Origin: Mucilaginibacter rubeus
GTDB taxonomy: Bacteria > Bacteroidota > Bacteroidia > Sphingobacteriales > Sphingobacteriaceae
Reading direction: 5' to 3'
DNA: 64,000 nt
Assembly (NCBI RefSeq): GCF_014643835.1
Contig: NZ_BMKD01000002.1
Span: 62,001 to 126,000 of the forward strand
Below the pieces are notes generated by a model that was not told where the DNA came from, did not search any database, and was given only the letters and a program-made list of their open reading frames with translations. The position numbers and the translations under genes were made by a program. The first letter of the stretch is position 1, and the number at the start of each line of letters is the position of its first letter. This document shows, in pieces, positions 14,897-37,950 of the stretch.

Positions 14897-16580
<1,684 letters not shown>

Positions 16581-19293: not shown

Positions 19294-21682
<2,389 letters not shown>

Positions 21683-21720
21683 TTAATGATCAAAAAAATC
21701 AGATCAAACACATTCTGTTC

Positions 21721-23064: not shown

Positions 23065-23093
23065 ATTAAAATTACACCTGCAACTGATCCAAC

Positions 23094-24275
23094 ATGAAAT
23101 TTAAAACGATTACAACATTAAAATTCCCGCTGTTACTAACTGGATTTGTCGCTCTGGCATCCTTTACGAACCGACAGGCCCTACACCATAACGCAGATTA
23201 TGGCCGGGCTGCAACCTCATCACATAAGGCTGATAAGGGATTGAAAGATTATTACCGAAAGTATTTTCCTATCGGTGTTGCAGTAAACGCGGCTGCACTT
23301 AGCGGACCTGAAGCAGAACTGATTGCAAAGGAGTTTAACAGCGTAACACCGGAAAACGACATGAAAATGGGCCCCATTCATCCGCGCGAAAATGAATATA
23401 ACTGGAAAAACGCCGATGCTATCGTAGCATTCGCGCAAGAGCACCACATGAAAATCAGGGGCCATAATTTGCTTTGGCATGCCCAGGCACCTGCATGGAT
23501 GTTTAAAGACAGCACGGGCAAACAGGTAAGTAAAGATGTGTTACTGAAGCGGCTTAAGGATCATATTACCACGGTAGTCAATCATTTTAAGGGTAAAATA
23601 TACGCGTGGGACGTAGTTAACGAAGCCATTGATGATAAACCCGATAACTACCTGCGTAACTCATTATGGTACCAGATATGCGGCGAGGATTTTATTGCCA
23701 AAGCGTTTGAATATGCCCATGAAGCCGACCCGGAGGCCCAACTTTTTTACAACGATTACAACAGTGAGGTTCCATCCAAACGGGATAAGATTTGTAAATT
23801 GCTCAGGAACCTTAAAGACGCCGGTGTACCGGTAACCGGAGTAGGCCTGCAGGGCCACTGGAAATTAAATGACCCCAGTTTGCAACAAATAACTGAAGCT
23901 ATGGATAAGTATGCAGCACTTGGATTAAAGCTGCAGATCACGGAGTTGGATGTTACGGTACGCACCGGCCCGCCGCGTAAAGCAGGCGATCAAACGCTGA
24001 CGGATTCCGCTTATACTGAAACCATGGCCGCTCAGCAAGCCGAAAGGTATAAAGCAATTTTTGAGATCTTCAGGAAATACAAAAAGGTAATAACCGGGGT
24101 TACTTTTTGGAACGTATCAGACCGGTACAGCTGGCTTGATTTCCGCGGTGGCGGTATTGCCGGCGGCGCAGCTGCGACCGAGGGCACAACTCGCAAAGTT
24201 ATCAAAGCCTACCCGCTGTTGTTTGATGAAAAACTTCAGCGAAAAAAGGCATATTGGGAAGTGGTTAACTTTTAA
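23094..24275 (+). CDS. GH10 endo-1,4-beta-xylanase
   Basis: A 393-residue endo-xylanase, a single catalytic TIM barrel behind an N-terminal signal or anchor (about 1-25). The acid/base is Glu177 in WDVVNEAID and the nucleophile Glu284 in LQITELDVT. Substrate-binding blocks NSVTPENDMKMG, GHNLLWHAQAPAW and TFWNVSDRYSWL are all present. It cleaves the xylan backbone internally, giving oligosaccharides for SusCD uptake. No carbohydrate-binding module is attached. It sits between two GH43 genes in the same operon (11 bp to the next gene). Confidence 0.97.
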   Translation: MKFKTITTLKFPLLLTGFVALASFTNRQALHHNADYGRAATSSHKADKGLKDYYRKYFPIGVAVNAAALSGPEAELIAKEFNSVTPENDMKMGPIHPRENEYNWKNADAIVAFAQEHHMKIRGHNLLWHAQAPAWMFKDSTGKQVSKDVLLKRLKDHITTVVNHFKGKIYAWDVVNEAIDDKPDNYLRNSLWYQICGEDFIAKAFEYAHEADPEAQLFYNDYNSEVPSKRDKICKLLRNLKDAGVPVTGVGLQGHWKLNDPSLQQITEAMDKYAALGLKLQITELDVTVRTGPPRKAGDQTLTDSAYTETMAAQQAERYKAIFEIFRKYKKVITGVTFWNVSDRYSWLDFRGGGIAGGAAATEGTTRKVIKAYPLLFDEKLQRKKAYWEVVNF

Positions 24276-24285
24276 CGTAAAATGA

Positions 24286-25860
24286 ATGAAAACAAAAAAT
24301 ATCGCATTTCTTAAACTGACAGTTACCTGCCTTTTATGGCGACTGGCAGTTATGCCTTTAAACGCGCAAACAGCACAAAATCCTATCATATATGCAGACG
24401 TTCCGGATGTATCGATGATCAGGGTTGGCGATACTTATTATGCAAGCAGCACCACTATGCATCTCAGTCCCGGGCTGCCAATCATGAAATCAAAAGATTT
24501 GGTGAACTGGCATATCGTGAGTTACGCATATAATACGCTTGATGGTGGGGATGCCCTTAACCTGGCAAACGGAGCAAACGCATATGGCAGGGGATCATGG
24601 GCAAGCAGCTTGCGTTATCATAACGGTACTTTTTACGTTTCTACATTTTCGGGCACTACCAATAAAACCTATATCTACAGCACAAAAAACATTGAAAAAG
24701 GCCCATGGAAAGAAATGTCCTTTAAGCCGGCATTACATGACCACTCACTTTTTTTTGATGATGACGGCAAAGCTTATATGATCTATGGGAGCGGCAAGAT
24801 CATGCTGGCCGAACTGAATGATGACCTGTCTGACGTCAATCCTGATAAAAAACCGCAAATCCTGATCGAGAATGCAAGCGCTGCTGCCGGTCCCAATATT
24901 GGTTTGCCTGCCGAAGGCTCGCAGCTATTCAAAATTAAGGGGAAATATTACCTTTTCAATATCAGCTGGCCTAAAGGGGGTATGCGTACCGTTTTAATCC
25001 ACCGGGCCGACAAGTTGACCGGTCCTTATGAAGGCCAGGTAGGGCTCCAGGATAAAGGTGTAGCCCAGGGCGGGCTTATTAATACCCCAAAAGGCGATTG
25101 GTATGCCTATTTATTCCGTGATTTTGGCGCCGTTGGCCGGGTGCCGTACCTGGTACCGGTTACCTGGACAGACGGATGGCCTGTATTGGGTATTGATCAC
25201 AAAGCACCAGATACGCTTGATTTACCTGCAAATAAAAGCCTGATCCCGGGCATCGTATCCCCGGATGAATTTAGCCGTAAAAACGGGAAGCCAATGCTGC
25301 CTTTGGTATGGCAATGGAACCACAATCCGGATGATCAGTTATGGTCGTTAAAAAAACGGCCCGGCTATCTGAGATTGACCACCGGACGGCTTGACAGCAC
25401 AGTACTATCGGCACGTAACACCTTAACGCAGCGCACCATCGGTCCCCAATGTTCGGGAACAACTTTAATAGATGTTTCCAACATGAAAGATGGAGACTTT
25501 GCAGGGCTGGTTTTACTGCAAAAAAAGTACGGCTTCGTTGGTGTAAAATCAGATCATGGCTCTAAACAAATAGTTATGATCAGCGCGCAATCCGGATCGG
25601 CTATTGAAGCGGCCAGCATACCTCTAAAGCAAACAACCATTTACCTTAAAGTAAGCTGCGATTTTACTAACCGGGCAGACAAAGCCTACTTTTTTTATAG
25701 TCTCAACGGGCGCAAATGGGAACCTATTGGCACACCGCTGCAAATGGTTTATACGCTCCCCCATTTTATGGGATATCGCTTTGGCCTGTTTAACTATGCA
25801 ACCAGGCAATCGGGCGGTTATGTTGATTTCGATTTTTTTCACATCAGCAATGCACAATAA
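24286..25860 (+). CDS. GH43 beta-xylosidase-like with C-terminal concanavalin-like domain
   Basis: A 524-residue secreted protein with signal ending near NAQTAQ. The propeller (about 30-325) begins NPIIYADVPDVSMIRVGDTYY, split here by function into the base-Asp region, and continues with HDHSLFFDDDGKAYMIYG and the acid Glu in PAEGSQLFKIKGKYY. A C-terminal beta-sandwich (about 335-522, GYLRLTTGRL...GPQCSGTTLIDVSNMKDGDFAGLVLLQ in part) matches the GH43_C2 type that completes the active site of family beta-xylosidases. Likely exo-acting on xylo-oligosaccharides or arabinosyl branches. It complements rather than duplicates the CBM6-bearing GH43 encoded upstream. Confidence 0.9.
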   Translation: MKTKNIAFLKLTVTCLLWRLAVMPLNAQTAQNPIIYADVPDVSMIRVGDTYYASSTTMHLSPGLPIMKSKDLVNWHIVSYAYNTLDGGDALNLANGANAYGRGSWASSLRYHNGTFYVSTFSGTTNKTYIYSTKNIEKGPWKEMSFKPALHDHSLFFDDDGKAYMIYGSGKIMLAELNDDLSDVNPDKKPQILIENASAAAGPNIGLPAEGSQLFKIKGKYYLFNISWPKGGMRTVLIHRADKLTGPYEGQVGLQDKGVAQGGLINTPKGDWYAYLFRDFGAVGRVPYLVPVTWTDGWPVLGIDHKAPDTLDLPANKSLIPGIVSPDEFSRKNGKPMLPLVWQWNHNPDDQLWSLKKRPGYLRLTTGRLDSTVLSARNTLTQRTIGPQCSGTTLIDVSNMKDGDFAGLVLLQKKYGFVGVKSDHGSKQIVMISAQSGSAIEAASIPLKQTTIYLKVSCDFTNRADKAYFFYSLNGRKWEPIGTPLQMVYTLPHFMGYRFGLFNYATRQSGGYVDFDFFHISNAQ

Positions 25861-25914
25861 AACAACTATGCATCAGCCCGATCATCATTTCAGAATAACT
25901 AAGGAATACCACCA

Positions 25915-28014
25915 ATGACAAAAAAGCTATTATTCTTATCTGCTGTATGTTTAAGTGCATTCAGCGGTCTACAGGCGCAAACCCGCCTCAACCTGGATCT
26001 TACCAAAGGTGTGAACGTAAGTCCGAAATTGTACGGGCTCATGACCGAGGAGATCAATCATTCCTATGACGGGGGATTATATGCCGAACTGATCCGTAAC
26101 CGGGTTTTTAAGGATAACCCAAATCAGCCCGATGGCTGGAGCGTTGTTCAGGATGGCGATAGCAAGGCATCGATACAGCTAATTGGTGCCGATCCGGCCA
26201 ATGTGTCTTTTGATCAGGGGCGCAATGCTATTAACGCGGCACTTACAACCTGCCTTAAGCTTACGGTTAGCCAGGCAAACGGTAACCGCGCGGGTATTGC
26301 CAACAATGGCTTTTGGGGTATTCCGGTTACACCGTCAACTACTTATCGCTGCTCCTTTTATATCAAAACCGGCACTGTCAATTTTCCGCGGGGTAACAGG
26401 CCTGATGCTACGCCTCCTGCAACAGCAGTTACAGAAGATGGCCCCGGTATTATCAACATTAGTTTGGAAAGCACCGATGGCAAAACAACCTACGCAAGGG
26501 GCACAATCAACCTCGAAAAAAGCACGTACTGGAAAAAGCATGAGTTAACCATTACAACTGCTCCAAATATTAAACCTACTGCCGACGCGCGTTTTGTAAT
26601 TTCATCTAACCGGACAGGCACTTACTATTTTAACCTCGTTTCCTTATTTCCCCCAACGTATAAAAACAGGCCGAATGGCAATCGCATTGATTTAATGCAG
26701 ATGATGGCCGATATGAAACCTACTTTTCTACGCTTTCCGGGAGGCAACTTTTTAGAGGGGCCATACCTGGGAGATGCCTTTCCATGGAAAACAACCTTAG
26801 GCCCGCTGGAGCAGCGTCCCGGCCATACAGGCAGCTGGGGTTACCGGGCAAGCGACGGTATGGGCCTGCTGGAATTTTTAGAGTGGTGTGAAGATTTAAA
26901 AATGGAACCGCTTTTAGCAGTTTTCGCCGGTTACTCATTACGTGGTGACCACATAGATGCGGGGCCTTTATTAGAGCCATATGTTAAAGACGCGCTGGAC
27001 GAAATTGAGTATTGTATTGGCGATACCAAAACTTACTGGGGTGCAAAACGGGCTGCCGACGGCCATCCCGCCCCTTTTAAACTGACAGATATAGAGATTG
27101 GAAATGAGGACTGGTTCGACAGGTCGCATAGCTACGATGGGCGCTTTAAGCAATTTCAGGCTGCTATAAAAGCTAAATACCCCCAGTTACGCTGTATCTC
27201 TACCATTGAAAGTTATAAGCCCGATAAGGTGACCAGCGTTAAACCCGAAATGGTTGACGAGCATTATTACCAATCGGCCTGGCAGATGGAAGAAGACGCG
27301 GCGAAGTATGATAGCTATGACCGTGCAACCAGCCCTAAAATATTTGTGGGCGAATGGGCCACCCGCGAAGGCGCGCCTACCACTAACCTGAATGCCGCCC
27401 TCGGAGACGCCGCCTGGATGACCGGAATGGAACGCAACAGCGACCTGGTGGAGCGGTCATGCTATGCGCCCTTATTCGTGAACGTAAACCAGGCAGGTAA
27501 CGGCCAACCTAAAGCCTGGCAATGGGACTCTGATCTGATTGGTTATACAGCCCTTAAAAGTTATGGATCTCCATCTTATTATGTACAAAAAATGTTCGGC
27601 AGCTACCTTGGCACTAAGGTGGTGCCAATAACAGCCGAAAATGCCCCCTTACGCAAACCGGCAGTTAAAGACACGGCCGGCATAAGCCATTGGCCGGCAA
27701 ACGCGCGGCGCCCTAAGGCCGAGCGTCCGGCGTTATTTTTTGTTTGTACCCAGGATGCCAAAAACGTGTATCTGAAGGTGGTAAATACCGACGATATGGC
27801 CCGCGAGATCACAGTCAACCTGAAGGGCGGAGATGTGGCTGCAAATGGCACCCTGGTTGTACTAAAGGGCGATAAACCGGAAGATACCAATACCATTGAT
27901 GAGCCAACAAAAATCGTCCCGGTTACGTCGACCATTACGGGACTTGGCCGGTCATTCAAACACACCTTCCAGCCTTATTCTATCAACGTCATCAGGCTGT
28001 CGAAGCGCAAATAG
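25915..28014 (+). CDS. GH51 alpha-L-arabinofuranosidase
   Basis: A 699-residue secreted enzyme (signal ending GLQAQ). An N-terminal segment with MTEEINHSYDGGLYAE precedes a CBM4-like insert (about 90-240), then the TIM barrel with acid/base Glu398 in EIGNEDWF and nucleophile Glu480 in FVGEWATREG, and a C-terminal beta-sandwich (about 560-699). Larger than the simple GH51 enzymes of about 500 residues because of the insert, as in the Bacteroidota group. It removes arabinofuranosyl branches from arabinoxylan or arabinan. Last gene of the operon, with a hairpin terminator 42 bp after the stop. Confidence 0.94.
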   Translation: MTKKLLFLSAVCLSAFSGLQAQTRLNLDLTKGVNVSPKLYGLMTEEINHSYDGGLYAELIRNRVFKDNPNQPDGWSVVQDGDSKASIQLIGADPANVSFDQGRNAINAALTTCLKLTVSQANGNRAGIANNGFWGIPVTPSTTYRCSFYIKTGTVNFPRGNRPDATPPATAVTEDGPGIINISLESTDGKTTYARGTINLEKSTYWKKHELTITTAPNIKPTADARFVISSNRTGTYYFNLVSLFPPTYKNRPNGNRIDLMQMMADMKPTFLRFPGGNFLEGPYLGDAFPWKTTLGPLEQRPGHTGSWGYRASDGMGLLEFLEWCEDLKMEPLLAVFAGYSLRGDHIDAGPLLEPYVKDALDEIEYCIGDTKTYWGAKRAADGHPAPFKLTDIEIGNEDWFDRSHSYDGRFKQFQAAIKAKYPQLRCISTIESYKPDKVTSVKPEMVDEHYYQSAWQMEEDAAKYDSYDRATSPKIFVGEWATREGAPTTNLNAALGDAAWMTGMERNSDLVERSCYAPLFVNVNQAGNGQPKAWQWDSDLIGYTALKSYGSPSYYVQKMFGSYLGTKVVPITAENAPLRKPAVKDTAGISHWPANARRPKAERPALFFVCTQDAKNVYLKVVNTDDMAREITVNLKGGDVAANGTLVVLKGDKPEDTNTIDEPTKIVPVTSTITGLGRSFKHTFQPYSINVIRLSKRK

Positions 28015-28055
28015 GTATCGCGCTGAAGTTCAATTCAAATATATTATCAAATGCG

Positions 28056-28078
28056 AAAAGCCGGCCTCCCGGCTTTTT
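28056..28078 (+). terminator. Intrinsic terminator of the xylan operon
   Basis: Stem AAAAGCCGG / CCGGCTTTT around a 4-nt loop, running into TTTTT. It lies 42 bp after the GH51 stop and closes the plus-strand operon. Confidence 0.85.
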
Positions 28079-28432
28079 GCGTTTAATTTAAGTGTTCGGG
28101 CAAATAGGCTTGTCCTCTTCAGCTGGCCTGAACCAATAGTTAATTTGCCCGCGATGCCATAAGAGAGGGTTTACCTTGTAAAACCATAGCGCCCGAGAGG
28201 GGGTTAACAGGGTTAACACAATTTCAAAAATCAGCTTACAAACAACTGATAATCAATTAAATAAAATCAACCTGGGTTACACTATTTTTCAATCAGAAAG
28301 TGATTTTTCAGATAATACACTGATAATCAGAATCATACACAAAACAACAGGGTTAACACAGTATTTTTTGCTAAAAACATTAGTATATTTACACTAAATT
28401 CCCGATCTTTATTCAAAAGATTGCCAAACCTG
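28079..28432. other. Repeat-bearing region upstream of the HTH gene
   Basis: No gene seen. It contains ACAGGGTTAACACA twice (28207-28220 and 28347-28360), with a tandem GGGTTAAC half-copy at 28201 and a degenerate CTGGGTTACAC copy near 28272, and ACTGATAATCA twice (28245-28255 and 28319-28329). The elements interleave and could be operator or iteron-like sites for the adjacent HTH protein. Confidence 0.55.
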
Positions 28433-29089
28433 ATGGAACCTGAAAATACCTTATCAAATTTAACGCCTTCAAGAGAAAAGCTCGACCGTGTATTGGGCCT
28501 GCAGAAGATCACCTTAGCAGATATTGAAGATTTGAACGATGCTGAACGCAATTACCTTGCCGAATTCAGTACCGAAATGCTGCAACGGTTAACGGATGAA
28601 GAACGGGACAAGTTTATAGATAAAATAGCGGAGATCATGCTGCCGAGCACAAATGAGCAGATCTGGGAACATAACCACTTAGTTATTAGCCGGGCCATCG
28701 AAAAGCTGATTGCCCAAAATGGCTCCATGCCCCCTAAATTTGTAATAGCCCGGGAATGCGGCCTGAGCCGGCAAACTGTTGCCAAACACCTTACAGGCTA
28801 TAAAACACATCCACAATACCTTGCCGAAATGGAACAGTTTAAATATATGGTCCCTAAAATACTGGCCAACGTTTGTAAACTTGCCTGCAACGGCGATGTA
28901 AAAGCCGCCCGGCTTTATTTTGAAACGGTTGGCGCTATAAACAAACGCCGGCCCAACACCGTTATCAACGAGCAAAATAACTACCTGCAAATAAACAACA
29001 CCATATTAAGCCAGGAAAACCTGAAACAGCTGAGCAAGGAGCAACTGAATCAGATTGAGTTGATTGTTAGTGGAATTGGGGGGAAGTGA
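28433..29089 (+). CDS. Helix-turn-helix protein, terminase-small-subunit/phBC6A51-like
   Basis: An intracellular protein of 218 residues from the ATG at 28433; a TTG 12 bp upstream is a weaker start. The first 80 residues are acidic and helical. The centre holds a helix-turn-helix, FVIARECGLSRQTVAKHLTGYKTHPQYL, split by a turn at GLSRQ, which resembles phage terminase small subunits and transposase-like HTH proteins (phBC6A51 type). The C-terminus is Asn/Gln/Leu-rich (NEQNNYLQINNTILSQ), also seen in terminase small subunits. No portal, large terminase or capsid gene lies nearby, so it may be a domesticated phage regulator. It marks the left edge of the accessory island and is preceded by paired repeats it might bind. 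Function unknown. Confidence 0.6.
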   Translation: MEPENTLSNLTPSREKLDRVLGLQKITLADIEDLNDAERNYLAEFSTEMLQRLTDEERDKFIDKIAEIMLPSTNEQIWEHNHLVISRAIEKLIAQNGSMPPKFVIARECGLSRQTVAKHLTGYKTHPQYLAEMEQFKYMVPKILANVCKLACNGDVKAARLYFETVGAINKRRPNTVINEQNNYLQINNTILSQENLKQLSKEQLNQIELIVSGIGGK

Positions 29090-29423
29090 GTTTTGGGGTT
29101 GATGGTAAAGTGGATTTTTTGATTGGTGCGGTTGTGATGTGCTGAGTTGTTTGAAGTGGCATTTGTGGATTTTGCCGTGATATCTGCTCGCAATGGCCCA
29201 TTATCAACTTTACGATTTGGTTCCTGAAGAACTCGCCATTATTGAGTAGTGATAAAAATACTCCAACTCAAGTCGAATTACTCTAAATTTTTAGCTAAAT
29301 CAACCAAAATTAATAAATTGAATATTGTTAGAAGTTTTAATACTTTTCAACAGAAAGAAGAAATCTGTTGATAGTGACGATTTTTAATCTATTTTTATTA
29401 ATCAATATAATAACCAAGACCTA
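29090..29423. other. 334-bp intergenic stretch with methyltransferase scrap and promoter region
   Basis: The first 90 bases are G/T-rich without a reading frame, then comes the degraded methyltransferase tail (29181-29249). From 29250 the DNA is very A/T-rich and carries an 8-bp inverted repeat, TCAACAGA at 29347-29354 and TCTGTTGA at 29364-29371, 53 bp before the next start codon. Confidence 0.6.
29181..29249 (+). pseudogene. C-terminal scrap of an Eco57I/PglX-type DNA methyltransferase
   Basis: A 22-codon open stretch ending in TAG reads AHYQLYDLVPEELAIIE at its end. This matches the typical tail of Eco57I-type restriction-modification and PglX-like N6-adenine methyltransferases, which finish LVYxLYGLTxEEIxIVE. 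A TGA stop precedes the stretch and no catalytic motif is found, so only the tail remains. If right, a larger restriction-modification gene once occupied this spot. The match is from memory of the family and is short. Confidence 0.4.
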
Positions 29424-30578
29424 ATGGAATCACTAAATTGTTTTAACTGTGACACATCAGTGGTAGAAACTGATAACTTTTGCGCAAAGTGCGGAAAAGG
29501 ACTAAAATGTAAGTCTTGTAAAACATTTATCAAAAAAGATGCTGAATTCTGCTTCAATTGTGGCGGAGCTTTTTATGATACAAAATCTACAGAACATAGT
29601 CCGCTGAATACTATCAAATATCGCAAGAGTGATGCTGAAATTTCATGTGAGATTTCGTTCACTGACAACGTGGGCAAGGAAAGGATGAATGATTTGTTGT
29701 CTGCTATAGTAAATAATAGATCAGGAATGTTAGGTAATCAAAATGGCAGTCAATTAAATAATAGATTAAAAATCGGGGATGAAAATGATACTTATGAACT
29801 AAATGATCATGAGGAGTTACACACGAGCATTTCATCAAATAACCCATCAGAAGAATCAAATGAAATACCTCATTTAAATGACATTGCAAGTAAAATCGAG
29901 TGTAGCGAAAATTCCTGGATAGGAATTCACGCTTTTTATATAAGTGAATTCGGAGCAAAGAATTTCGACAAAGACACTGTGAGGAATGCTTATATGGAGC
30001 GAAGAAAGACTGACAGTAGGTCAAGCAATTTTTCCAAGGAATGGCAAAAAGCCCATCAAAAATATTTTAAGACTATTAGAGATAACGAGTTCAATTTTCA
30101 GAATGGAGCAATAGCCGAAATTGAAAATATTATTTTAGAAAAAAAGAATAAAACTACTTCAAAAACAAAAAAGAAGACAGCAGCAACTGGTTCAAAAAAA
30201 ACGCCCAGCAGATCAATTGCAATTGAAGAATTCGACTTATCTAAAGGTGTCAATCCAGCAAAACCTTCATTAGAAGAATTCATGTCTATCAAAAAACCGG
30301 GCAATAGCACCTATGACCGAATTGTTGTTATTGCGTATTATATCACGAGATTAAACAAAAATGAACACTTTACCGAAGGGCAAGTGGAGTTTGCATACAA
30401 AGCTTTGCAATTAAGTGATCGCCCAGGCCACTTAAGACAAACGATTAATAATATAAAGAACACTAAAGTTTGGTTTAAGGATGTTTCTCAAGGCCAGTGG
30501 ACGCTTGAACGAATTGGTGAGATCTATGTGGATGAAAAACTTCCGTCCAAAGAAGTAAATAGTCAAAATATAATTTAG
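29424..30578 (+). CDS. Double zinc-ribbon protein with winged-helix-like domains
   Basis: A 384-residue intracellular protein, not recognised as a named family. Residues 6-46 form two zinc ribbons (Cys6, 9, 20, 23 and Cys29, 32, 43, 46). A low-complexity polar stretch follows. Residues about 161-215 (SWIGIHAFYISEFGAKNFD) and 280-372 (EEFMSIKKPGNSTYDR, VVIAYYITRL, GQWTLERIGEIYV) look like two copies of one winged-helix-like fold, joined by a Lys-rich linker (about 233-262). The second copy aligns by eye with residues 71-158 of the 192-residue protein at 32979-33557 (EFxxxKxPxxxxxRIVxxAYYxT ... GExxV). It starts a two-gene operon (5-bp gap). DNA or RNA sensing is plausible but inferred. A/T-rich coding unlike the flanking operons. 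Confidence 0.72.
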   Translation: MESLNCFNCDTSVVETDNFCAKCGKGLKCKSCKTFIKKDAEFCFNCGGAFYDTKSTEHSPLNTIKYRKSDAEISCEISFTDNVGKERMNDLLSAIVNNRSGMLGNQNGSQLNNRLKIGDENDTYELNDHEELHTSISSNNPSEESNEIPHLNDIASKIECSENSWIGIHAFYISEFGAKNFDKDTVRNAYMERRKTDSRSSNFSKEWQKAHQKYFKTIRDNEFNFQNGAIAEIENIILEKKNKTTSKTKKKTAATGSKKTPSRSIAIEEFDLSKGVNPAKPSLEEFMSIKKPGNSTYDRIVVIAYYITRLNKNEHFTEGQVEFAYKALQLSDRPGHLRQTINNIKNTKVWFKDVSQGQWTLERIGEIYVDEKLPSKEVNSQNII

Positions 30579-30583
30579 ACCCA

Positions 30584-31213
30584 GTGCTCCCTGCAAAAAA
30601 ATCCAACACTTTACTGACTACTGATAGGAGTAACTATTTGAACAAGATTGCTCAATCTATGTTCGAACAAGATTCGGACGGGTCAGATTACGATTTAATT
30701 ATTACACTTAGTGATACTGATATTTCATTCAGAGAATTTGGAAGCTTTTTGATAACTATTGATGATTTTTATGGAAGGTTCTACAAAAAAGGGTTTCTTA
30801 GTTATGCGAAGACACAGAAGGCCCATTTAAAAGCTTCAGAAATAAGGCATGGATCAATTGAAATTATCGTCCAAGAAATTTTAAAAAAGTTAGCGATACA
30901 CGACACAATATATTTTTTTTTGATGATTAAGTATCTGCCAGCGGTAATAAAAGAGGGCAGCGAAGTACTAAAAAATTTGACAGAATCTTTTCATAATTAT
31001 GAAAACGCCAAATTGGTAAGATTACAGAAGAAAAGTTTAAGCAAGGAACTTCGAAAAGATGAACTCCTTGAAAATTTGACAGATGAAGAAATCAGGAAGT
31101 TAAATCGAAACTTAAAAGCTAAATATCCTAATGATAAAAAAAAGCTAAAGGGTGCATCTAAATTTGCGTCTCAGAAACTTCTTAGTGTACAAATTCAAAA
31201 GAAAAAAAATTAA
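30584..31213 (+). CDS. Unrecognised 209-aa protein of the accessory island
   Basis: Function unknown. The longest frame starts at a GTG (30584), 5 bp after the previous stop; a TTG at 30638 behind an AGGAG-like stretch and an ATG at 30659 are alternatives, so the true N-terminus is uncertain. Residues about 35-105 have alternating hydrophobic strands (YDLIITLSDTDISFREF, RHGSIEIIVQEIL), with a GS(I/D)xI motif seen in some defence-associated proteins of unknown function. A hydrophobic helix (YFFLMIKYLPAVI) follows and the C-terminal third is strongly basic, suggesting nucleic-acid contact. It is convergent with the alarmone-synthetase gene: the stops share the TTAA at 31210-31213. Confidence 0.65.
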   Translation: MLPAKKSNTLLTTDRSNYLNKIAQSMFEQDSDGSDYDLIITLSDTDISFREFGSFLITIDDFYGRFYKKGFLSYAKTQKAHLKASEIRHGSIEIIVQEILKKLAIHDTIYFFLMIKYLPAVIKEGSEVLKNLTESFHNYENAKLVRLQKKSLSKELRKDELLENLTDEEIRKLNRNLKAKYPNDKKKLKGASKFASQKLLSVQIQKKKN

Positions 31214-31222
31214 CTTTTTTTC
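31201..31222. terminator. A/T hairpin holding both convergent stop codons
   Basis: A near-perfect A8/T7 palindrome with TTAA at its centre. The TTAA is read as TAA on both strands. Each strand ends in a U run after the stem, so it could terminate both operons despite the lack of G/C pairs. Confidence 0.5.
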
Positions 31223-31965
31223 TTTTTTTCGTTGGTGTTGACTTCTTTAGATATATTTTTAGCCACCTTCGCTAATTCATGATTATATGTACTAAATATC
31301 GAATCAACTAACCTGCTGCAACTTGAAGTTACTCTTGCCAAAGTTTTTATTTGTTCGCGACATGAATGACTTTCAGAAGTATGTGGGTAGTTTATTTTAT
31401 GATCTACCTCGCCCCAAACTTCTTCACTTAAAGTTCTTACTTGGATTTCACAAGTAATTGGTGTAGAATTATTGGGTTTTAAAATGTAATGAACACTTGT
31501 GTACAAACGTTCATTATTGGAAGTTGCCACTCCAATACTTTCAAAATAAGCTTTGGTTTCATCGTCCCAAATTCGTGCATTAGGCCCCTCAATAATTTGC
31601 CACCGTTGTTCTGCGAAAATTCTATTTAATGCAATGTTAATCTGCTCAAATTGAGTTGTATGTAAATGCAAAATTCGAAACCCCACCAAATCATTGATCT
31701 TAGAAAATAAGTTCTCAGTAGTGTAATCAAACGCTTCTCCTTTCTCAATACAATTGTTAGCCTTTCGAATCAATTTATCCCGCAAATGATCCACATCTTT
31801 TATTCGAGATTTATGAGAATGTATCACTTTTTTCAATCCTTCGTCGTTTTCTATGACACTATGCAAACCATCATTTAGAATTGCGAAAATTGGTTTGTTT
31901 TTGACAAAGTGCTCCACTAATTGATCGATTAATTTTAATTGTCTAACACCTATATGCTTAGCCAT
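31210..31965 (-). CDS. Single-domain RelA/SpoT-type (p)ppGpp synthetase-like protein
   Basis: A 251-residue protein carrying only the alarmone-synthetase fold; no HD hydrolase, TGS or ACT domain. Motifs appear complete: SRIKDVDHLRDKL with the ATP-binding RIK at 54-56; NDLVGFR with metal Asp92 and Arg97; LYTSVHY with Tyr155, Ser157, His159; CEIQVRT with Glu173, Gln175, Arg177; and EVWGEVDHK with Trp184, Glu186, His189. Known relatives are small alarmone synthetases (RelP/RelQ) and toxSAS toxins, which make (p)ppGpp, (p)ppApp or pyrophosphorylate tRNA. The tail is Lys-rich. It is the last gene of the operon, 3 bp after the ParA gene. The ParA/winged-helix context is unlike housekeeping synthetases and favours a toxin or defence effector; that is inference. 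Confidence 0.85.
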   Translation of the reverse strand: MAKHIGVRQLKLIDQLVEHFVKNKPIFAILNDGLHSVIENDEGLKKVIHSHKSRIKDVDHLRDKLIRKANNCIEKGEAFDYTTENLFSKINDLVGFRILHLHTTQFEQINIALNRIFAEQRWQIIEGPNARIWDDETKAYFESIGVATSNNERLYTSVHYILKPNNSTPITCEIQVRTLSEEVWGEVDHKINYPHTSESHSCREQIKTLARVTSSCSRLVDSIFSTYNHELAKVAKNISKEVNTNEKKKKS

Positions 31966-31968
31966 AAA

Positions 31969-32982
31969 CTATGTATTAGATGTTAATGAAATAATTTTGT
32001 TCGCGATCAATTGAAACTCTTTTTTTGCATCTTTTTTCATAGAAACATCGCCCCCCTCTACGTCAAAAAAAGAAAGACCCTGTGTTTGTGAAAAGGGTAC
32101 CAGGCTTGCAAAATCTTTAACTTGACCGAGTTTAGTTTGACTTAGGGTTCCTTTAGCCAAATCTTTATCAATTCTTCGTAATACTTCCGTAATGTCGCTA
32201 TAGGTGCTCTTCTCAACTTTTCCGGCGTACCCTGCAAATTGACTTGCTATCGCTCCACCGTACATTCTAAATCTCTGAAGAATATATCCTAAATATTTAG
32301 GTCGTCCTGGAAGAAGTAAAGAATTGTCTGGAGCTAACTGTGCAATAACCTGCCATTCTAAAATCCAATCATATAACGATTTGCCCAATGTTTTTAATGC
32401 CCTTACTGAAAACAAGTCGCAAGCTGCTGGAATTATAAAAAAATCACAATCCAATAGGATAACTCTGTTCAGAGGACCTATATTAGGACCAACATCATAA
32501 AATACAAAATCAATATTTTCTTTTTTTGCTATAACGTTGACAATCTCGCTAATTGCAGAGGCGCCTTTAAATCCTCTAACTTTTCTTTGCAAACAGTCAA
32601 CCCAAATCTGATTTAATTCTTGTTCAAATTCAGAAAGACGGATATCACCGGGGAGTAAATAAACGCCTTCTTGCCGCTCGAAAGGTTTTACGAAATTTAA
32701 GTCGCCATAACTTTCCATAAAAGGCTTGATAGCGGACCAAATCGTACTTCCATTTTCCGAATCAGAATTATCAAGCCATTCATCAACTACATCTGTATCA
32801 ACCAAATAAGAAGTTAAATTACATTGTGGATCAGCATCGACGAGCAAAACTCTATAACCTAATGAAGCAAGTGCAGATGCTATGTTAACAAGGAGCGTGG
32901 TTTTTCCAACGCCACCTTTATGATTGTATAGTGTTAACCTCGTCGACCTGTGTCTAATTAAATTATTAATTTTTTTACTCAC
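31969..32982 (-). CDS. ParA/Soj-type P-loop ATPase of the accessory island
   Basis: A 337-residue cytosolic ATPase. The deviant Walker A HKGGVGKTT (signature Lys22, Lys27) is at residues 21-29, the switch VDADPQCNL at 48-56, and a Walker B-like FVFYDVGPNIGPLN near residue 165. Such ATPases dimerise on ATP and often bind DNA. No ParB gene or parS-like repeats are seen, so plasmid partition is unlikely. It overlaps the winged-helix gene by 4 bp (ATGA) and precedes the alarmone synthetase by 3 bp, so the three are co-translated. It may act as a sensor or control subunit for the synthetase. Longer than minimal ParA proteins (about 250 residues), with an extra C-terminal segment. Confidence 0.88.
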   Translation of the reverse strand: MSKKINNLIRHRSTRLTLYNHKGGVGKTTLLVNIASALASLGYRVLLVDADPQCNLTSYLVDTDVVDEWLDNSDSENGSTIWSAIKPFMESYGDLNFVKPFERQEGVYLLPGDIRLSEFEQELNQIWVDCLQRKVRGFKGASAISEIVNVIAKKENIDFVFYDVGPNIGPLNRVILLDCDFFIIPAACDLFSVRALKTLGKSLYDWILEWQVIAQLAPDNSLLLPGRPKYLGYILQRFRMYGGAIASQFAGYAGKVEKSTYSDITEVLRRIDKDLAKGTLSQTKLGQVKDFASLVPFSQTQGLSFFDVEGGDVSMKKDAKKEFQLIANKIISLTSNT

Positions 32983-33557
32983 GGTTGCTCGGTTTTGTTG
33001 GATAGACTTTTGCTTGCGGGCCTTTTTACACGCCGTTTGATTTTCATGCTCGCAATACTGGCTTTAGCAGCTTCTCTATCTGGTAGAGCCTGCACAAACG
33101 TTTCTCCCATTGAACTAATTTGCTTACTGCCTCTCACGGCCTGGACAAGATACCCATTCTTCGTCGCGTTATCTACCGCAACTGTCGGGTTTGATAGTTT
33201 TGGTTGAGCTGCTTCTGTATTAAGAGTACTAAGATCTACAGTTTTAAAATGAAGCGTATCTCTATAATGAGTTAAATAATATGCTAAACAAACAATGCGC
33301 TCAATATCTGTTTTTGGTGATTTATCTCTTAAAAAATCTTTTGGAGATATCGCACGATTTTCAGAAAAAGGAACATCGCTTTTAGTTTGGCTGGATAAAT
33401 CATAAGATTTCAAAGCAACATGACTTTCAGAGGTCCTTAAAGGAATATCAAGAAAAGTTGCTACAGCTTGAAGTGTTCTTTTCTGTGAATCAACATCCAT
33501 ATCTTTTAACAATGAGATTATGGTTGTCAAGGCTTCAATATTCGTTTCGCTTGCCAT
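32979..33557 (-). CDS. Winged-helix-like regulator of the ParA/alarmone operon
   Basis: A 192-residue intracellular protein, first gene of the operon. Residues 1-45 are helical. Residues 71-158 (SPKDFLRDKSPKTDIER, CLAYYLTHY, FKTVDLS, ISSMGETFVQALP) form the winged-helix-like domain also found at the C-terminus of the zinc-ribbon protein at 29424. The tail is basic (KIKRRVKRPASKS). It lies just downstream of a 13-bp perfect inverted repeat that overlaps the promoter region, consistent with DNA binding and autoregulation. It may also be the antitoxin-like partner of the alarmone synthetase. No named family recognised; role inferred from position. Confidence 0.75.
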   Translation of the reverse strand: MASETNIEALTTIISLLKDMDVDSQKRTLQAVATFLDIPLRTSESHVALKSYDLSSQTKSDVPFSENRAISPKDFLRDKSPKTDIERIVCLAYYLTHYRDTLHFKTVDLSTLNTEAAQPKLSNPTVAVDNATKNGYLVQAVRGSKQISSMGETFVQALPDREAAKASIASMKIKRRVKRPASKSLSNKTEQP

Positions 33558-34014
33558 TTTTCTTTTTTGTTAAAGGTAAAAAGAATATATTGAATACGTA
33601 AAAAAAACGTATTCAATATCTAAAAAAAATAGGATTGTATCTAATTTTTAAACCAAGATATCAAAAAACAAAGATTATTGAGTCAAACCAGCGCGAGTAT
33701 ATAGCCCCGCTACCGCAAGCGCCCACGCTTATGGCCCGTGTTCAGGTAAATAAAGTTTTATTTACACCAACTTCACGGTTGCAATGATCACAACATGACA
33801 TGCAGAGCAAAACGATCAGCATACCGGCTATACACACCATTCATCAAAATGCACAACAAGTTTTTTTAAATGGAAGATACTCCGAAAACACCCTTTAACA
33901 GGTGCTCCGGGCCTTTTTTCGCACCGACCATTTAAATAAATGTTAAATAATTTTACGAAAAGTAAAATACATCAATAATTATAGTTATATTGCACACTTA
34001 TTAATAACAATATA
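33558..34014. other. 457-bp intergenic region, operon promoter and island edge
   Basis: The left part holds the minus-strand promoter and a long inverted repeat (33587-33619). A G/C-richer patch at about 33690-33745 differs sharply from the A/T-rich sequence around it, followed by a hairpin GTAAATAAA/TTTATTTAC at 33746-33765. The right end is the promoter region of the cold-shock gene. No gene was found. Confidence 0.6.
33571..33619 (-). promoter_or_regulatory. Promoter and 13-bp inverted-repeat operator of the wHTH-ParA-alarmone operon
   Basis: The minus strand shows TACCTTTA (33578-33571), close to the Bacteroidota -7 consensus TAnnTTTG, 13 bp before the start codon region. Directly upstream is a perfect inverted repeat with arms ATATTGAATACGT (33587-33599) and ACGTATTCAATAT (33607-33619) around seven A residues, covering the expected -33 position. 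A dimeric DNA-binding protein here would block transcription, so autorepression is likely. Confidence 0.55.
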
Positions 34015-34206
34015 ATGCAACAAGGAACAGTAAAATTTTTTAATGAAGCCAAAGGTTTCGGATTTATCACACCTAACAATGGTGGCAGCGAAATCTTCGT
34101 TCATTCAACAGGTCTGATTGACAATGTTCGTGAGAACAGCGCCGTTAGTTATGACGTTGAAGAAGGCCGTAAAGGTCCGAATGCAGTAAATGTAAAAATA
34201 GCTTAA
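34015..34206 (+). CDS. Cold-shock protein, CspA family
   Basis: A 63-residue single cold-shock domain, an RNA-binding OB fold. The RNP1 motif KGFGFI and RNP2 motif EIFVHS are intact. The family destabilises RNA secondary structure and also acts in growth at normal temperature. A strong hairpin terminator begins 18 bp after the stop, so it is largely a single-gene unit. A possible TATATTGC -7 element lies about 35 bp upstream. Confidence 0.96.
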   Translation: MQQGTVKFFNEAKGFGFITPNNGGSEIFVHSTGLIDNVRENSAVSYDVEEGRKGPNAVNVKIA

Positions 34207-34224
34207 TCACTATATCATCATTTT

Positions 34225-34258
34225 AAAAGCATCCTCCCATCCGGGGGGATGCTTTTTT
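34225..34258 (+). terminator. Intrinsic terminator after the CspA-like gene
   Basis: Stem AAAAGCATCC / GGATGCTTTT with an inner CCC/GGG extension, followed by TTTTTT. It lies 18 bp after the stop codon and immediately before the next gene. Confidence 0.88.
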
Positions 34259-34277
34259 GTTACACTTAATCAAAAAC

Positions 34278-34730
34278 ATGGGTAGATCCACCGAAACATT
34301 TAACAAGAAAGAGCGCGAAAAGAAAAAGCTCAAAAAACAACAGGACAAAAAAGAAAAGGCCGAAGATCGTAAAGCCAACGCTGTTAAAGGACAGGGCTTT
34401 GAAGATATGCTGGCTTATGTTGACGCAAACGGCAACATTACCTCCGTGCCCCAGGACCCCGGTAATCGGAAAAAGGTATTGGCGCAGGACATCCTCATTG
34501 GTACGCCAAAACAAGAGGAAGTTGAAGTAGAAATTGTAAGAAAAGGCACAGTAACATTCTTTAATGAATCTAAAGGGTTCGGTTTCATCAAAGATCTGCA
34601 AACCCAGGAAAGCATTTTTGTTCATGTCAACGCGGCTTCTTTTGCCATCAAAGAAAATGACAAAGTTACCTTTGAAATAGAACAGGGGCAAAAAGGGCCT
34701 ACCGCTGTCAAAGTCGCTAAAGCGAGCTAA
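34278..34730 (+). CDS. Cold-shock-domain protein with basic N-terminal extension
   Basis: A 150-residue protein from the ATG at 34278; a TTG 21 bp upstream overlaps the terminator and is unlikely. Residues 1-45 are very rich in Lys/Glu (KKEREKKKLKKQQDKKEK), a probable charged helix. Residues about 85-148 are a cold-shock domain with KGFGFI (RNP1) and ESIFVHVN (RNP2). Proteins of this layout are common in Bacteroidota and probably bind RNA; the extension may bind ribosomes or RNA. Close similarity to the 63-residue neighbour suggests tandem duplication followed by extension. Confidence 0.88.
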   Translation: MGRSTETFNKKEREKKKLKKQQDKKEKAEDRKANAVKGQGFEDMLAYVDANGNITSVPQDPGNRKKVLAQDILIGTPKQEEVEVEIVRKGTVTFFNESKGFGFIKDLQTQESIFVHVNAASFAIKENDKVTFEIEQGQKGPTAVKVAKAS

Positions 34731-34788
34731 GGCTTAATTAACCATTGCAACAATAAACAAGATAAATCCTCATACAATAAATATCAGA

Positions 34789-35115
34789 ATGACCGATAAA
34801 CAAACAGCACACTACAAAGCCAGCGAATATATTTATGACCTGGGTAATACCGCTTTGGAGAATGGTTTTAAACCCGACGAGCATTGGGAGGTACAAATGG
34901 CTACCGCCGCTGAGAAAAAAGCTTTTGAGAAACAGTACTACCCTACGGTAGCGACAAGTGTACTGCCCGAACTGTTAAAAGCGACTTTTGCCCTGGTAAA
35001 AACGCAATTGAACCAGGTGATGAAGGCACAAACAGTGATACCGTCGGATCGTTTCGCCCCCGAGCCGGTGTACGAATACCTGGTTGCCTTTAATTTAAAC
35101 CGCGTAAGGCGTTAA
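34789..35115 (+). CDS. Hypothetical 108-aa protein
   Basis: A 108-residue soluble protein without signal peptide or recognised domain. It is helical by composition (AAEKKAFEKQYYPT, LLKATFALVKTQLNQVM). It lies 58 bp after the cold-shock-domain gene and in the same direction, and has codon use like the surrounding chromosome, so it is probably real. Function unknown; co-transcription with the cold-shock gene is possible since no hairpin separates them. Confidence 0.6.
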   Translation: MTDKQTAHYKASEYIYDLGNTALENGFKPDEHWEVQMATAAEKKAFEKQYYPTVATSVLPELLKATFALVKTQLNQVMKAQTVIPSDRFAPEPVYEYLVAFNLNRVRR

Positions 35116-35280
35116 TGTTGATAGTTTCCCAACCTGGCGCGGGTATGCAGGGCTGGGTTTAGATGCGGCATACCAGTGACTTTCAAAGTAAAAAAGTGAT
35201 TTTCACCCATATTTTCGCACCTTAAATTGCAAACATCAGCCTAACCCTGATTATCTTACGGGATTATTAGGATTGACTGA

Positions 35281-37686
35281 ATGACCCGTACACTTTTACT
35301 CTTTCTACTGGCCCTGTTACCCCTGGGCGGCTTTGCACAGCAGTTTACGCTGATAGTTGTTAAAGAAAACGCCCAGCCCGCCGATGGTGCTACCGTTAAA
35401 CTGATACAGGCAAACAAACAGGCCAGTATGATCGTAACTAACGCCCGCGGCCAGGCCAGGTTTCAGAACATTGCGCAGGGAGCATTCAGCTTCTCGGTAA
35501 CTTATACGGGATATCAGCCCCAAACCACCCGCAGCTATACCATTGCGGAGAATATTAAGCAGGATACCATCCGCATACAAGCCCTGAGTACTGTACTGAA
35601 AGAGGTGAACATCACTGCCAAAACGCCGCCGGTAGAGGTGAAGCAGGGAAAGGTGATCGTAAACGTTGATGCTTCGGTTACGAATGTGGGGGCCACGGTA
35701 CTGGAGGTATTGGAGAAATCGCCGGGGGTAATGGTCGACCGTAATGGCGGCATTGCTTTACAGGGCAAGCCCGGGGTGCTGGTGATGATAGACGGCAAGC
35801 CTACCTACCTCTCCGGCGCCGACCTCAACAACCTGCTCAGCAGCATGAGCTCCACCCAGGTGGCGCAAATTGAACTGATTGCCAATCCCACCGCACGGTA
35901 TGATGCCAGCGGAAACGCGGGGATCATTAATATTAAAACCAAAAAGAACCGGCAAAAGGGTTTCAACGGGTCGGTTACGGCTACGGTGGCGCAGGGAGTT
36001 TACTTCAAAACCAATAACACGCTCACGCTCAATTACCGCGCCGGGCGTGTCAGCACTTTCTTTAATTACAATATCAGCCGGCAGAAGTATCTTACCAACC
36101 TGTACGCGCTGCGTAAATACACCGGCGCCGACGGGGCGACCACCGCAACGCTGGATCAGCCATCACACTTCACCGGCACACTGCTGAACAATACGGCCAA
36201 AGCGGGGCTGGACTATGAAGTTTCGCCTAAAACAACGGTTGGCATTGTGCTCGGCGGAACCATGATCCATCGCGAGGGCAACAATACAGCTTCGGCGCGC
36301 TGGCTCAACCCAAGTGGTGCGGCAGATTCTGTCATCGCTACCGATAACGCCAATAACAGCCGGTTTAAAAACGGCCAGGTGAGCCTGAGCCTCCGCCATG
36401 CCATCAGCAAAAACCAGGACATCAGCGCTGATGCCGACTGGCTGCACTACAACATTACCAGCGACCAGAATTTCAACAACCGCCTGCAAACCACCGGCGG
36501 TTATAACGAATCTACACGCGCCAACATCCCCACCACCATCAACATATTCACTGGCAAAGCCGACTATACGCTTAAAACCGACAGCGATGGCCAATTTCAG
36601 GCGGGCTGGAAATCGGCACACAGCAGTACCGATAACTCCGCCGGTTACCAAAACCTCAATGCGGGCCAATGGACTGATGACCTGACCCGCAGTAACCATT
36701 TCCTTTACAGTGAGAACATCCACGCGGTTTACACGCAATGGGAGCGCAAGCATAAGGCCATTTCCTATCAGGTAGGCTTACGTTATGAGCATACCGATTA
36801 TCACGCCCATCAACTGGGTAATGTGCTGCAAAAAGATTCGGCCTTTTCGCGCAACTACGGCAGCTTTTTTCCCAGCGGCAATTTCAGTTACCAGGCCGAT
36901 ACTGCAAATAGCTTTACTTTAACGGTAAGCCGCCGTATTGATCGCCCGGTTTACCAAACGCTTAACCCATTTTATTTTATCATTAACAAGTACACTTATC
37001 AAACGGGCAACCCTTATATTTTACCTCAATACAGCTGGAACCTGGAGCTGAGCCATCAATACAAAAACCTGCTCACCACCACGGTATCTTACAGCAATAT
37101 CAACAACTACTTTTCGCAGATCTTTTTGAGCGACCCTACCCTTGCGGGTATTTTGCTGTATACACAGGGCAACGTGGGGCGCACGTATATCATCGGCGTA
37201 TCCGAAGCTATCACGGCCTCCCCCACCAACTGGTGGACGCTTACAGCACAGGCGCTGTACAATTACAAAAAACTGAGCGGTTTTAACGGCAATCATTACA
37301 CATCAGATATTAACCAGCTTAACCTCAATGCCAGCAACCAGTTCACCATGGGCAAACGTTTTACGGGCGAGGTATCGGGCTTTTACACCACCCGCGCCCG
37401 CAACGATGTGCAGGAACGGCTATACCCTACCGGGCAGCTCTCGGCAGGGCTGGGCATGTCGGTATTTAAAAAGAAGGCCACCCTGAAGTTGAGCATGCGC
37501 GATATATTCTATACCAATGCCATGGAAGGCTTAACGCAGTTCCCCAACGCCACCGAGTATTTTAAGATTAAGCGCGATAGCCGCGTAGTGGTGCTCGCGT
37601 TCACCTATCGTTTCGGCAAAACCTTCAAAACGGCCAAGCGCGACAACGGCGCGGCCGATGAAATGCAGCGTGTAGGGAATGGGTAA
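35281..37686 (+). CDS. CarboxypepD_reg/TonB-receptor-like outer-membrane barrel protein
   Basis: An 801-residue outer-membrane protein (signal ending GGFAQ). A carboxypeptidase-regulatory-like Ig domain (about 22-100) is followed by a plug-like domain (about 105-225, NVGATVLEVLEKSPGVMVD, VLVMIDGKPTYLSG) and a barrel of the OMP_b-brl_3 type. It lacks the SusC length and TonB-box style, and no SusD gene is adjacent. The cargo is unknown. Its G/C content is visibly higher than that of the neighbours. It resembles the protein at 60784-63222 in domain order. Confidence 0.9.
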   Translation: MTRTLLLFLLALLPLGGFAQQFTLIVVKENAQPADGATVKLIQANKQASMIVTNARGQARFQNIAQGAFSFSVTYTGYQPQTTRSYTIAENIKQDTIRIQALSTVLKEVNITAKTPPVEVKQGKVIVNVDASVTNVGATVLEVLEKSPGVMVDRNGGIALQGKPGVLVMIDGKPTYLSGADLNNLLSSMSSTQVAQIELIANPTARYDASGNAGIINIKTKKNRQKGFNGSVTATVAQGVYFKTNNTLTLNYRAGRVSTFFNYNISRQKYLTNLYALRKYTGADGATTATLDQPSHFTGTLLNNTAKAGLDYEVSPKTTVGIVLGGTMIHREGNNTASARWLNPSGAADSVIATDNANNSRFKNGQVSLSLRHAISKNQDISADADWLHYNITSDQNFNNRLQTTGGYNESTRANIPTTINIFTGKADYTLKTDSDGQFQAGWKSAHSSTDNSAGYQNLNAGQWTDDLTRSNHFLYSENIHAVYTQWERKHKAISYQVGLRYEHTDYHAHQLGNVLQKDSAFSRNYGSFFPSGNFSYQADTANSFTLTVSRRIDRPVYQTLNPFYFIINKYTYQTGNPYILPQYSWNLELSHQYKNLLTTTVSYSNINNYFSQIFLSDPTLAGILLYTQGNVGRTYIIGVSEAITASPTNWWTLTAQALYNYKKLSGFNGNHYTSDINQLNLNASNQFTMGKRFTGEVSGFYTTRARNDVQERLYPTGQLSAGLGMSVFKKKATLKLSMRDIFYTNAMEGLTQFPNATEYFKIKRDSRVVVLAFTYRFGKTFKTAKRDNGAADEMQRVGNG

Positions 37687-37775
37687 AGCCCCACCCAAAC
37701 CCTCCCCGGAAGGGAGGGCTTAAAAAAATGCACATCAAAAAGTCTCCCCTTCCGGGGGAGATTTAGCGGGGGCTT
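37687..37775. repeat. Inverted pair of G/C-rich intergenic repeats
   Basis: Two diverged copies of one element face each other: AAGCCCCACCC...CTCCCCGGAAGGGAGGG (37686-37721) and the reverse form CTCCCCTTCCGGGGGAG...CGGGGGCTT (37740-37775). Each can form its own hairpin. Such CCCCTCCGGAAGGGG elements are common between genes in Bacteroidota genomes. One copy may serve as the terminator of the upstream gene. Confidence 0.6.
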
Positions 37776-37824
37776 ATTGCTTTAATCTTGCGGTCGTTTG
37801 CAACAAGCGCTGATATTGCTTTTA

Positions 37825-37925
37825 TGTAGAGACGCATCACATGCGTCTCCCATAGGTCAAGCTGCTTTACAGTTCATGAACATCAGGAATCTGTATGCGG
37901 AAGACCCATGTGATGCGTCTTTACA
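37825..37925. repeat. 101-bp inverted-repeat element (MITE/REP-like)
   Basis: A 24-bp arm at 37825-37848 (core GACGCATCACATGCGTCT) is repeated inverted at 37902-37925 with two mismatches, separated by 53 bp. The arm itself contains an imperfect palindrome. It looks like a non-autonomous mobile repeat or REP-type element. No transposase is encoded inside. Confidence 0.6.
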
Positions 37926-37950
37926 TTAAACAATTGAATTTGAACTGGCA

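Follow-up and report, generated by a model that had tools for sequence, protein, structure and literature searches.

The stretch of DNA analysed in this study, hereafter the window, comprises 64,000 nucleotides of Mucilaginibacter rubeus (contig NZ_BMKD01000002.1, positions 62,001 to 126,000 of the forward strand), and carries on its minus strand an operon of three genes, encoding in this order P0003 (a putative winged-helix protein), a ParA-type ATPase (hereafter ParA) and a single-domain RelA/SpoT synthetase (small alarmone synthetase, hereafter SAS). The frames of P0003 and ParA overlap by 4 bp and those of ParA and SAS are separated by a gap of 3 bp, while the plus strand of the same island carries the genes for a zinc-ribbon protein and for a basic protein (Table 1). 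The genes listed for this island in a preliminary description of the window were confirmed as real by reading frames and a Pfam scan, and its border, given there as 28201..33619, was corrected to 29105-33704 after alignment with 19.9 kb of the nearest genome (G001). The two genomes are approximately 95% identical over 18000-29104 and 33705-38440 of the window, both alignments extending to the ends of these 19.9 kb, and because the alignment breaks at 29104 and resumes at 33705 the segment in between was taken as the exchanged, foreign one; its GC content is 34%.

Table 1. Coordinates of the features in and around the operon (positions in the window; aa, amino acids)
Feature	Position	Strand	Basis or remark
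Exchanged 4.6-kb cassette	29105..33704	.	approximately 95% identical flanks; different 4057-bp cassette at the same site of G001
Zinc-ribbon protein, C-terminal part P0003-like	29424..30578	+	Pfam Zn_ribbon_3 7e-8, DZR 1e-6
Basic protein of 209 aa, encoded after the zinc-ribbon protein	30584..31213	+	no match in 247 phylum genomes (search without positive control)
Single-domain RelA/SpoT synthetase (SAS), 251 aa	31210..31965	-	Pfam RelA_SpoT
ParA-type deviant Walker A ATPase, 337 aa	31969..32982	-	Pfam AAA_31 5.4e-27
P0003 (192 aa), putative winged-helix protein, first gene in one subgroup only	32979..33557	-	no Pfam family
Perfect 13-nt inverted repeat with 7-nt spacer, candidate operator	33587..33619	.	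30 nt upstream of the P0003 start

The presence of ParA-SAS is patchy. Only one weak SAS match (E 1.3e-4, 27% identity) was detected among 60 relatives, and at E 1e-3 matches were obtained in 14 of 395 genomes of the phylum with a single close one, in G327 (E 2.7e-52), so that SAS was rejected as a core gene of the genus. ParA was found beside SAS both in G327 and in a plasmid record of Caballeronia. A collection of species genomes was then scanned with three SAS sequences, giving 49 loci, and a scan of viral contigs gave 3 loci; the 34 close SAS loci analysed below consist of 29 from the species genomes, the 3 from viral contigs (two with identical SAS), L017 and L021. ParA is located immediately upstream of SAS on the same strand in 33 of these 34 loci, the 34th (L035) beginning at a contig end, and 31 of these 33 have a ParA-SAS gap of -38 to +15 bp. 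Since the scan yielding most of the close loci used SAS alone as query, this adjacency was not selected for; the search for a conserved ParA-synthetase neighbourhood, proposed in the preliminary description, gave a positive answer, and chance adjacency was rejected. By record title, the close members span Paraflavitalea, Mesonia, Nitrospira, Bryobacterales, Poribacteria, one metagenome-assembled genome of Bacillota and many Proteobacteria, and comparison of the neighbour genes by script found no other gene family common to most of the 34 loci.

For the SAS tree, 20 more distant SAS without ParA (L051-L070) were employed as the outgroup, from which two short pieces (L066 and L070) were left out. 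A single starred clade, apart from the 18 SAS without ParA, contained the window together with 33 of the 34 loci; L044 was left out as too short, and L035 was taken in although the DNA upstream of its SAS is cut off by the contig end. The distances of ParA and SAS were well correlated in the Mantel test (r 0.835 over 27 loci, as high in none of 2000 permutations), also within the large subgroup (r 0.857) and among the six members of the small one (r 0.673, as high in 8 of 2000 permutations). The small subgroup, consisting of the window, L021, L022, L023, L024 and L071, carries a P0003-like gene before ParA, while the others carry no relative of P0003 and have a longer ParA of about 370 aa. Both the ParA and SAS trees are quick trees with long-branch warnings; a single origin of the two ParA subgroups is not claimed, as the quick tree separates them, though one clade is not rejected by the approximately unbiased (AU) test (p 0.065).

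The synthetase motifs are invariant in 25 aligned SAS sequences and are presumably the active-site motifs of RelA/SpoT synthetases, and the structure model of SAS is most like RelQ/RelP, with 16-23% sequence identity in those alignments. Likewise the Walker A sequence KGGVGK is invariant in 21 aligned ParA, the following two residues being nearly so, and the window ParA falls within a starred clade of six; P0003 and SAS are likewise present at the loci of these ParA. Altogether ParA and the synthetase constitute a conserved, mobile and co-diverging unit with conserved motifs.

P0003 is not a constant part of this unit. Its relatives are located directly 5' of ParA in L021, L022, L023, L024 and L071, and when 296 genomes of the phylum were searched with the alignment of P0003, the sole match was G327, a known member with P0003 before ParA-SAS. 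The winged-helix-like gene, treated in the preliminary description as a controlling component, is thus not a required one, being present in the window and only five of the 34 loci; its winged-helix fold is suggested with low confidence by modelling. The core motif of the palindrome upstream of P0003 has a single, mismatch-free occurrence in the window, against 0.23 expected when up to 3 mismatches are allowed, and this palindrome also scores terminator-like. A different 13-nt repeat (92%) was found 5' of the P0003 relative in L021 and imperfect ones in L022, and no inverted repeat was listed at this position in L023, L024 and L071; because of these differences, a role of P0003 as repressor of the operon is a guess.

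The slot of the window's ParA-SAS is occupied in G001 by a 4057-bp cassette of the cyclic oligonucleotide-based anti-phage signalling system (CBASS) plus an AbiLi-like ATPase (L193, C27:284000-303900, reverse-complement 11107-15163). This cassette encodes a TIR-STING effector (prok_STING 3.5e-30, CAP12 TIR 8.5e-25, PADLOC 1e-98), and PADLOC also identified an E2-like protein (1.4e-48), the AbiLi-like ATPase (7.6e-84) and a CD-NTase that reads in two frames (2.8e-75 and 1.2e-10), indicating that the slot can hold a known kind of defence cassette. The second context is Escherichia coli, in which the ParA-SAS pair was found in 7 of 5426 complete genomes, the copies being over 99% alike. In both E. 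coli loci opened, which belong to P2-like prophages, the pair has the replication endonuclease gene on one side, accompanied by a small gene and one of the DinI family, and the portal gene on the other; the same endonuclease-to-portal arrangement was observed in another P2-like prophage (L072). This gpA-gpQ interval has been described as a defence hotspot of P2-like prophages (Rousset et al. 2022, PMC9122126; Vassallo et al. 2022, PMC9519451; parts of the texts), and neither ParA nor RelA is mentioned in the main text of Rousset et al. Thus, ParA-SAS fills in two independent contexts the slots that otherwise hold anti-phage systems. At L038 the pair follows hsdR and YgjP-like genes in the same orientation, a type I restriction neighbourhood. 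In E. coli ST12468 (L209, 1-1014), the P2-like prophage with ParA-SAS also has, adjoining its CI repressor, a gene annotated as encoding a SNIPE associated domain-containing protein.

We propose that the operon constitutes a mobile module of defence type, the small alarmone synthetase being controlled by the ParA-family ATPase. From the sequences and their contexts we consider this proposal probable, and a role of ParA-SAS in defence is in itself likely. ParA would bind ATP and DNA and form a complex with the synthetase, which would be silent in uninfected cells; phage infection would alter the nucleotide-bound or DNA-bound state of ParA, by which the synthetase would be released or licensed. 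The licensed enzyme would pyrophosphorylate a nucleotide, the formation of (p)ppGpp or (p)ppApp being likelier than an action on tRNA because the SAS model is most like RelQ/RelP, and growth would halt together with phage replication. In the subgroup of the window, P0003 may repress the operon at the palindrome or act as an additional sensor. ParA as antitoxin and ParA as obligatory activator appear about equally probable: the activator is favoured by the loci with broken ParA beside intact SAS, unless these are sequencing errors, and by the ParA-Shi precedent (see below), and the antitoxin by the proposal made in 2013 for ParA-HEPN pairs.

Several observations weigh against this proposal. The ParA frame is broken and SAS intact in three of the 34 loci (L017, L032 and L039; perhaps sequencing errors), which fits poorly with SAS as a simple toxin dependent on ParA for its neutralisation, and speaks mildly against a toxicity neutralised by the partner as in the toxic small alarmone synthetases (toxSAS); at L044 it is SAS that is split, perhaps by a sequencing error. 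L017 resides on a 1.68-Mb plasmid record. The CBASS exchange rests on one genome pair, since the left flank of the window was found in order in none of 12 further stretches of the genus, 11 of which carry a cold-shock relative. PADLOC families (E below 1e-20; families counted, not distinct proteins) numbered 103 near ParA-SAS and 88 near unlinked SAS, no clear difference, in 141 proteins each; the cases were 141 of 165 proteins from 22 of 26 loci chosen from the 34 (L017, L024, L028 and L071 dropped for size), and the controls a random draw of 141 from 176. Furthermore, PADLOC holds no good model for ParA or SAS, and the neighbours at some loci (Poribacteria; Proteus L047), judged by eye, are metabolic-looking.

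The pair might instead serve to maintain plasmids or plasmid-like prophages: ParA would segregate DNA, the P0003-type protein (where present) would bind the centromere, and the synthetase would penalise loss or retard division. In agreement with such a role, ParA is a partition-family ATPase (AAA_31; PHROG 164) with the deviant Walker A motif of ParABS systems, the gene order is palindrome, P0003, ParA, and one locus (L017) is on a plasmid record; this explanation is also kept alive by the putative partition system located at gpA-gpQ in about a fourth of P2-like phages (Rousset et al., PMC9122126, part of the text). However, Pfam detected no ParB-type family in the eight window proteins scanned (the other loci were not scanned singly for ParB), the palindrome is single and not iterated like repeated centromere sites (sites of other kinds are possible), and no third gene is conserved in the larger subgroup. 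In addition, of the 29 close loci from the species genomes 15 are on contigs of over 0.1 Mb and three are labelled chromosome, and the 7 E. coli copies are all in chromosomal records. The partition neighbours that would have spoken against the preliminary description thus did not appear in the window, the plasmid record of L017 being the reservation, and we regard a maintenance module as rather unlikely. An accessory (p)ppGpp synthetase that is positioned or timed by a MinD/ParA-like ATPase for a niche stress response, with no part in conflict, would agree with the nearness of the SAS model to RelQ/RelP, which are housekeeping SAS, and with the ordinary-looking metabolic neighbours at several loci; it is quite unlikely in view of the patchy presence, the CBASS exchange at one site, the location in P2-like prophages, and the toxin-like partners of ParA relatives described below.

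It is highly improbable that all five genes of the island form one system, with the zinc-ribbon and basic proteins as sensor or antitoxin of the synthetase. This arrangement would be favoured by the C-terminal region that the zinc-ribbon protein and P0003 have in common (25% identity, E 2e-5, one single comparison), and by a relative of this C-terminal part, without the ribbons, located 5' of P0003-ParA-SAS in L022. Nevertheless, L022 was the only one of the 34 close loci with a relative of the zinc-ribbon gene at E below 1e-5 in the stretch examined, and the relatives detected in two of 247 phylum genomes (G076 and G156) are each followed by a gene for a 246-247-aa protein, with no ParA-SAS seen in the 12-13 kb listed; on the evidence of G076 and G156 the zinc-ribbon gene was also rejected as a core gene. 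The basic protein gave no match in the same 247 genomes (a search without positive control) and no significant similarity to the 247-aa gene after the zinc-ribbon relative of L022, while the 246-247-aa proteins of G076, G156 and L022 are 38-64% identical to each other. A recurrent two-gene unit of zinc-ribbon/winged-helix-like protein and 246-247-aa protein is found at L213 (5431-7340), L214 (1947-3876) and, without the ribbons, L022 (6504-8212), and within 29424-31213 of the window the unrelated basic protein replaces the second member. By sequence comparison, the zinc-ribbon pair is probably a separate second module with a domain in common with P0003, and the island, presented in the preliminary description as one module, probably holds two, as the zinc-ribbon gene pairs elsewhere without ParA-SAS. 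What stands of the defence or toxin-antitoxin reading given there is the conserved mobile ParA-SAS unit with its two defence slots (the CBASS swap in G001 and gpA-gpQ in E. coli), and not the winged-helix gene or the unity of five genes. A 222-aa helix-turn-helix gene (28421-29089) was rejected as an island member because it belongs to the common flank with G001; 5' of this gene, the exact 15-nt direct repeat AACAGGGTTAACACA is present at 28206-28220 and 28346-28360, spaced 140 bp.

Relatives of ParA were detected in 19 of 247 phylum genomes at E 1e-15 (best 12 read) and in viral contigs (80 of 99 loci retained), and the partner genes were counted for a total of 93 ParA loci (12 from phylum genomes, 80 from viral contigs, and L018). 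A HEPN-type gene is located directly downstream of ParA in 15 of the 93, with a match to the RiboL-PSP HEPN model in all three scanned and the RX4-6H motif in all four checked. A SIR2_2 gene is beside the ParA relative in one locus, an upstream gene of one family is present at eight (the single member scanned being Schlafen AlbA_2), and a protein with a presumed class III cyclase-like motif at four (no Pfam match for the two scanned). In the ParA tree, reduced from 123 rows to 84 by leaving out near-duplicates, rows under 250-300 aa and weak scorers (L032 and L039 with their split frames among them), a single starred clade was formed by each of the two SAS groups, by the Schlafen group and by the cyclase-like group, and almost so by the HEPN rows. 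For many of the ParA relatives in prophages no partner gene is evident.

As to individual loci, the ParA relative at L074 (G230 C1, 609-2469) is followed after 13 bp by a SIR2_2 gene matching the LmuA and ThsA profiles; a Schlafen AlbA_2/HATPase_c_4-type gene (one scanned) is directly 5' of the ParA relative at L075, L076 and L078-L083, some of which have methylase-like or helicase-like neighbours as judged by eye; and at L109, L110, L117 and L144 a 215-239-aa gene with the class III cyclase-like motif overlaps or abuts ParA. The viral-contig loci L102-L107 form a sister group to the window-type ParA without synthetase, and at L107 the ParA relative adjoins a tail-like and a repressor-like gene, judged by eye. 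We tentatively raise the possibility that this ParA subfamily is a switch of general use for sensing phages, an ATPase gate bound to the nucleoid that can be combined with different killing enzymes (an alarmone synthetase, a HEPN RNase, or a SIR2-like, Schlafen-type or cyclase-like protein). If so, ParA-SAS would be the first branch to be recognised in which alarmone synthesis for immunity is under the direct gating of segregation machinery.

No description of the ParA-SAS pairing was found among the literature matches listed (open-licence PMC texts; supplements and figures not covered), nor is ParA with SAS described in the available parts of PMC12691689, PMC7159879 and PMC5379612. The module, called undescribed in the preliminary description, is so as far as ParA-SAS among these matches is concerned; a dyad of ParA plus toxin was, however, already proposed in 2013 for HEPN RNases (PMC3710099, part of the text). 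If our proposal is correct, DNA-segregation ATPases would be linked with alarmone signalling in phage defence, and other ParA pairs, among them the ParA-HEPN pairs of the 2013 prediction, could be viewed in the same frame; the compact two-gene unit in P2-like prophages of E. coli is open to direct testing.

Among the known systems, the toxSAS modules (FaRel2, FaRel, PhRel and CapRel; PMC11782079, part of the text) resemble ParA-SAS in that a control gene is linked to the gene of an enzyme with one SYNTH domain. The SAS of the window has such a single synthetase domain with the conserved motifs, presumably those of the active site, and the Pfam scan of the island proteins detected none of the known kinds of antitoxin (pZFD-like, Tis1-like, PanA, hydrolase), though small domains can evade the models. 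In contrast to the housekeeping RelQ/RelP, with which it is 16-23% identical, this SAS is sporadic, mobile and tied to ParA. On the ATPase side, the nearest solved relative of the window ParA by sequence is PDB 3pg5 (361 aa, E 7.5e-34), itself uncharacterised, which we take to be DIP2308 of Corynebacterium diphtheriae. In ICEclc, a ParA ATPase and Shi, a small partner encoded adjacently, jointly stop host growth and the Walker A motif is needed (PMC6812849, part of the text); by this description ParA-Shi resembles ParA-SAS in that ParA and the product of a neighbouring gene act as a pair, and differs in that Shi is short and HicA-like and has parB adjacent. ParA-SAS is also similar in gene arrangement to the HEPN-ParA/Soj dyad, for which ParA was postulated as antitoxin (Anantharaman et al. 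2013, PMC3710099). In the available part of that paper, which names the MAE_18760 HEPN family and makes no mention of a synthetase with ParA, a ParA/Soj-like ATPase gene is paired with a toxin-type gene; the ATPase gene is likewise immediately beside the effector gene here, and ParA-HEPN pairs, matching the RiboL-PSP HEPN model, are present among the relatives. The effector of ParA-SAS is, however, an alarmone synthetase (RelA_SpoT) instead of a HEPN RNase, and the respective ParA form separate clades.

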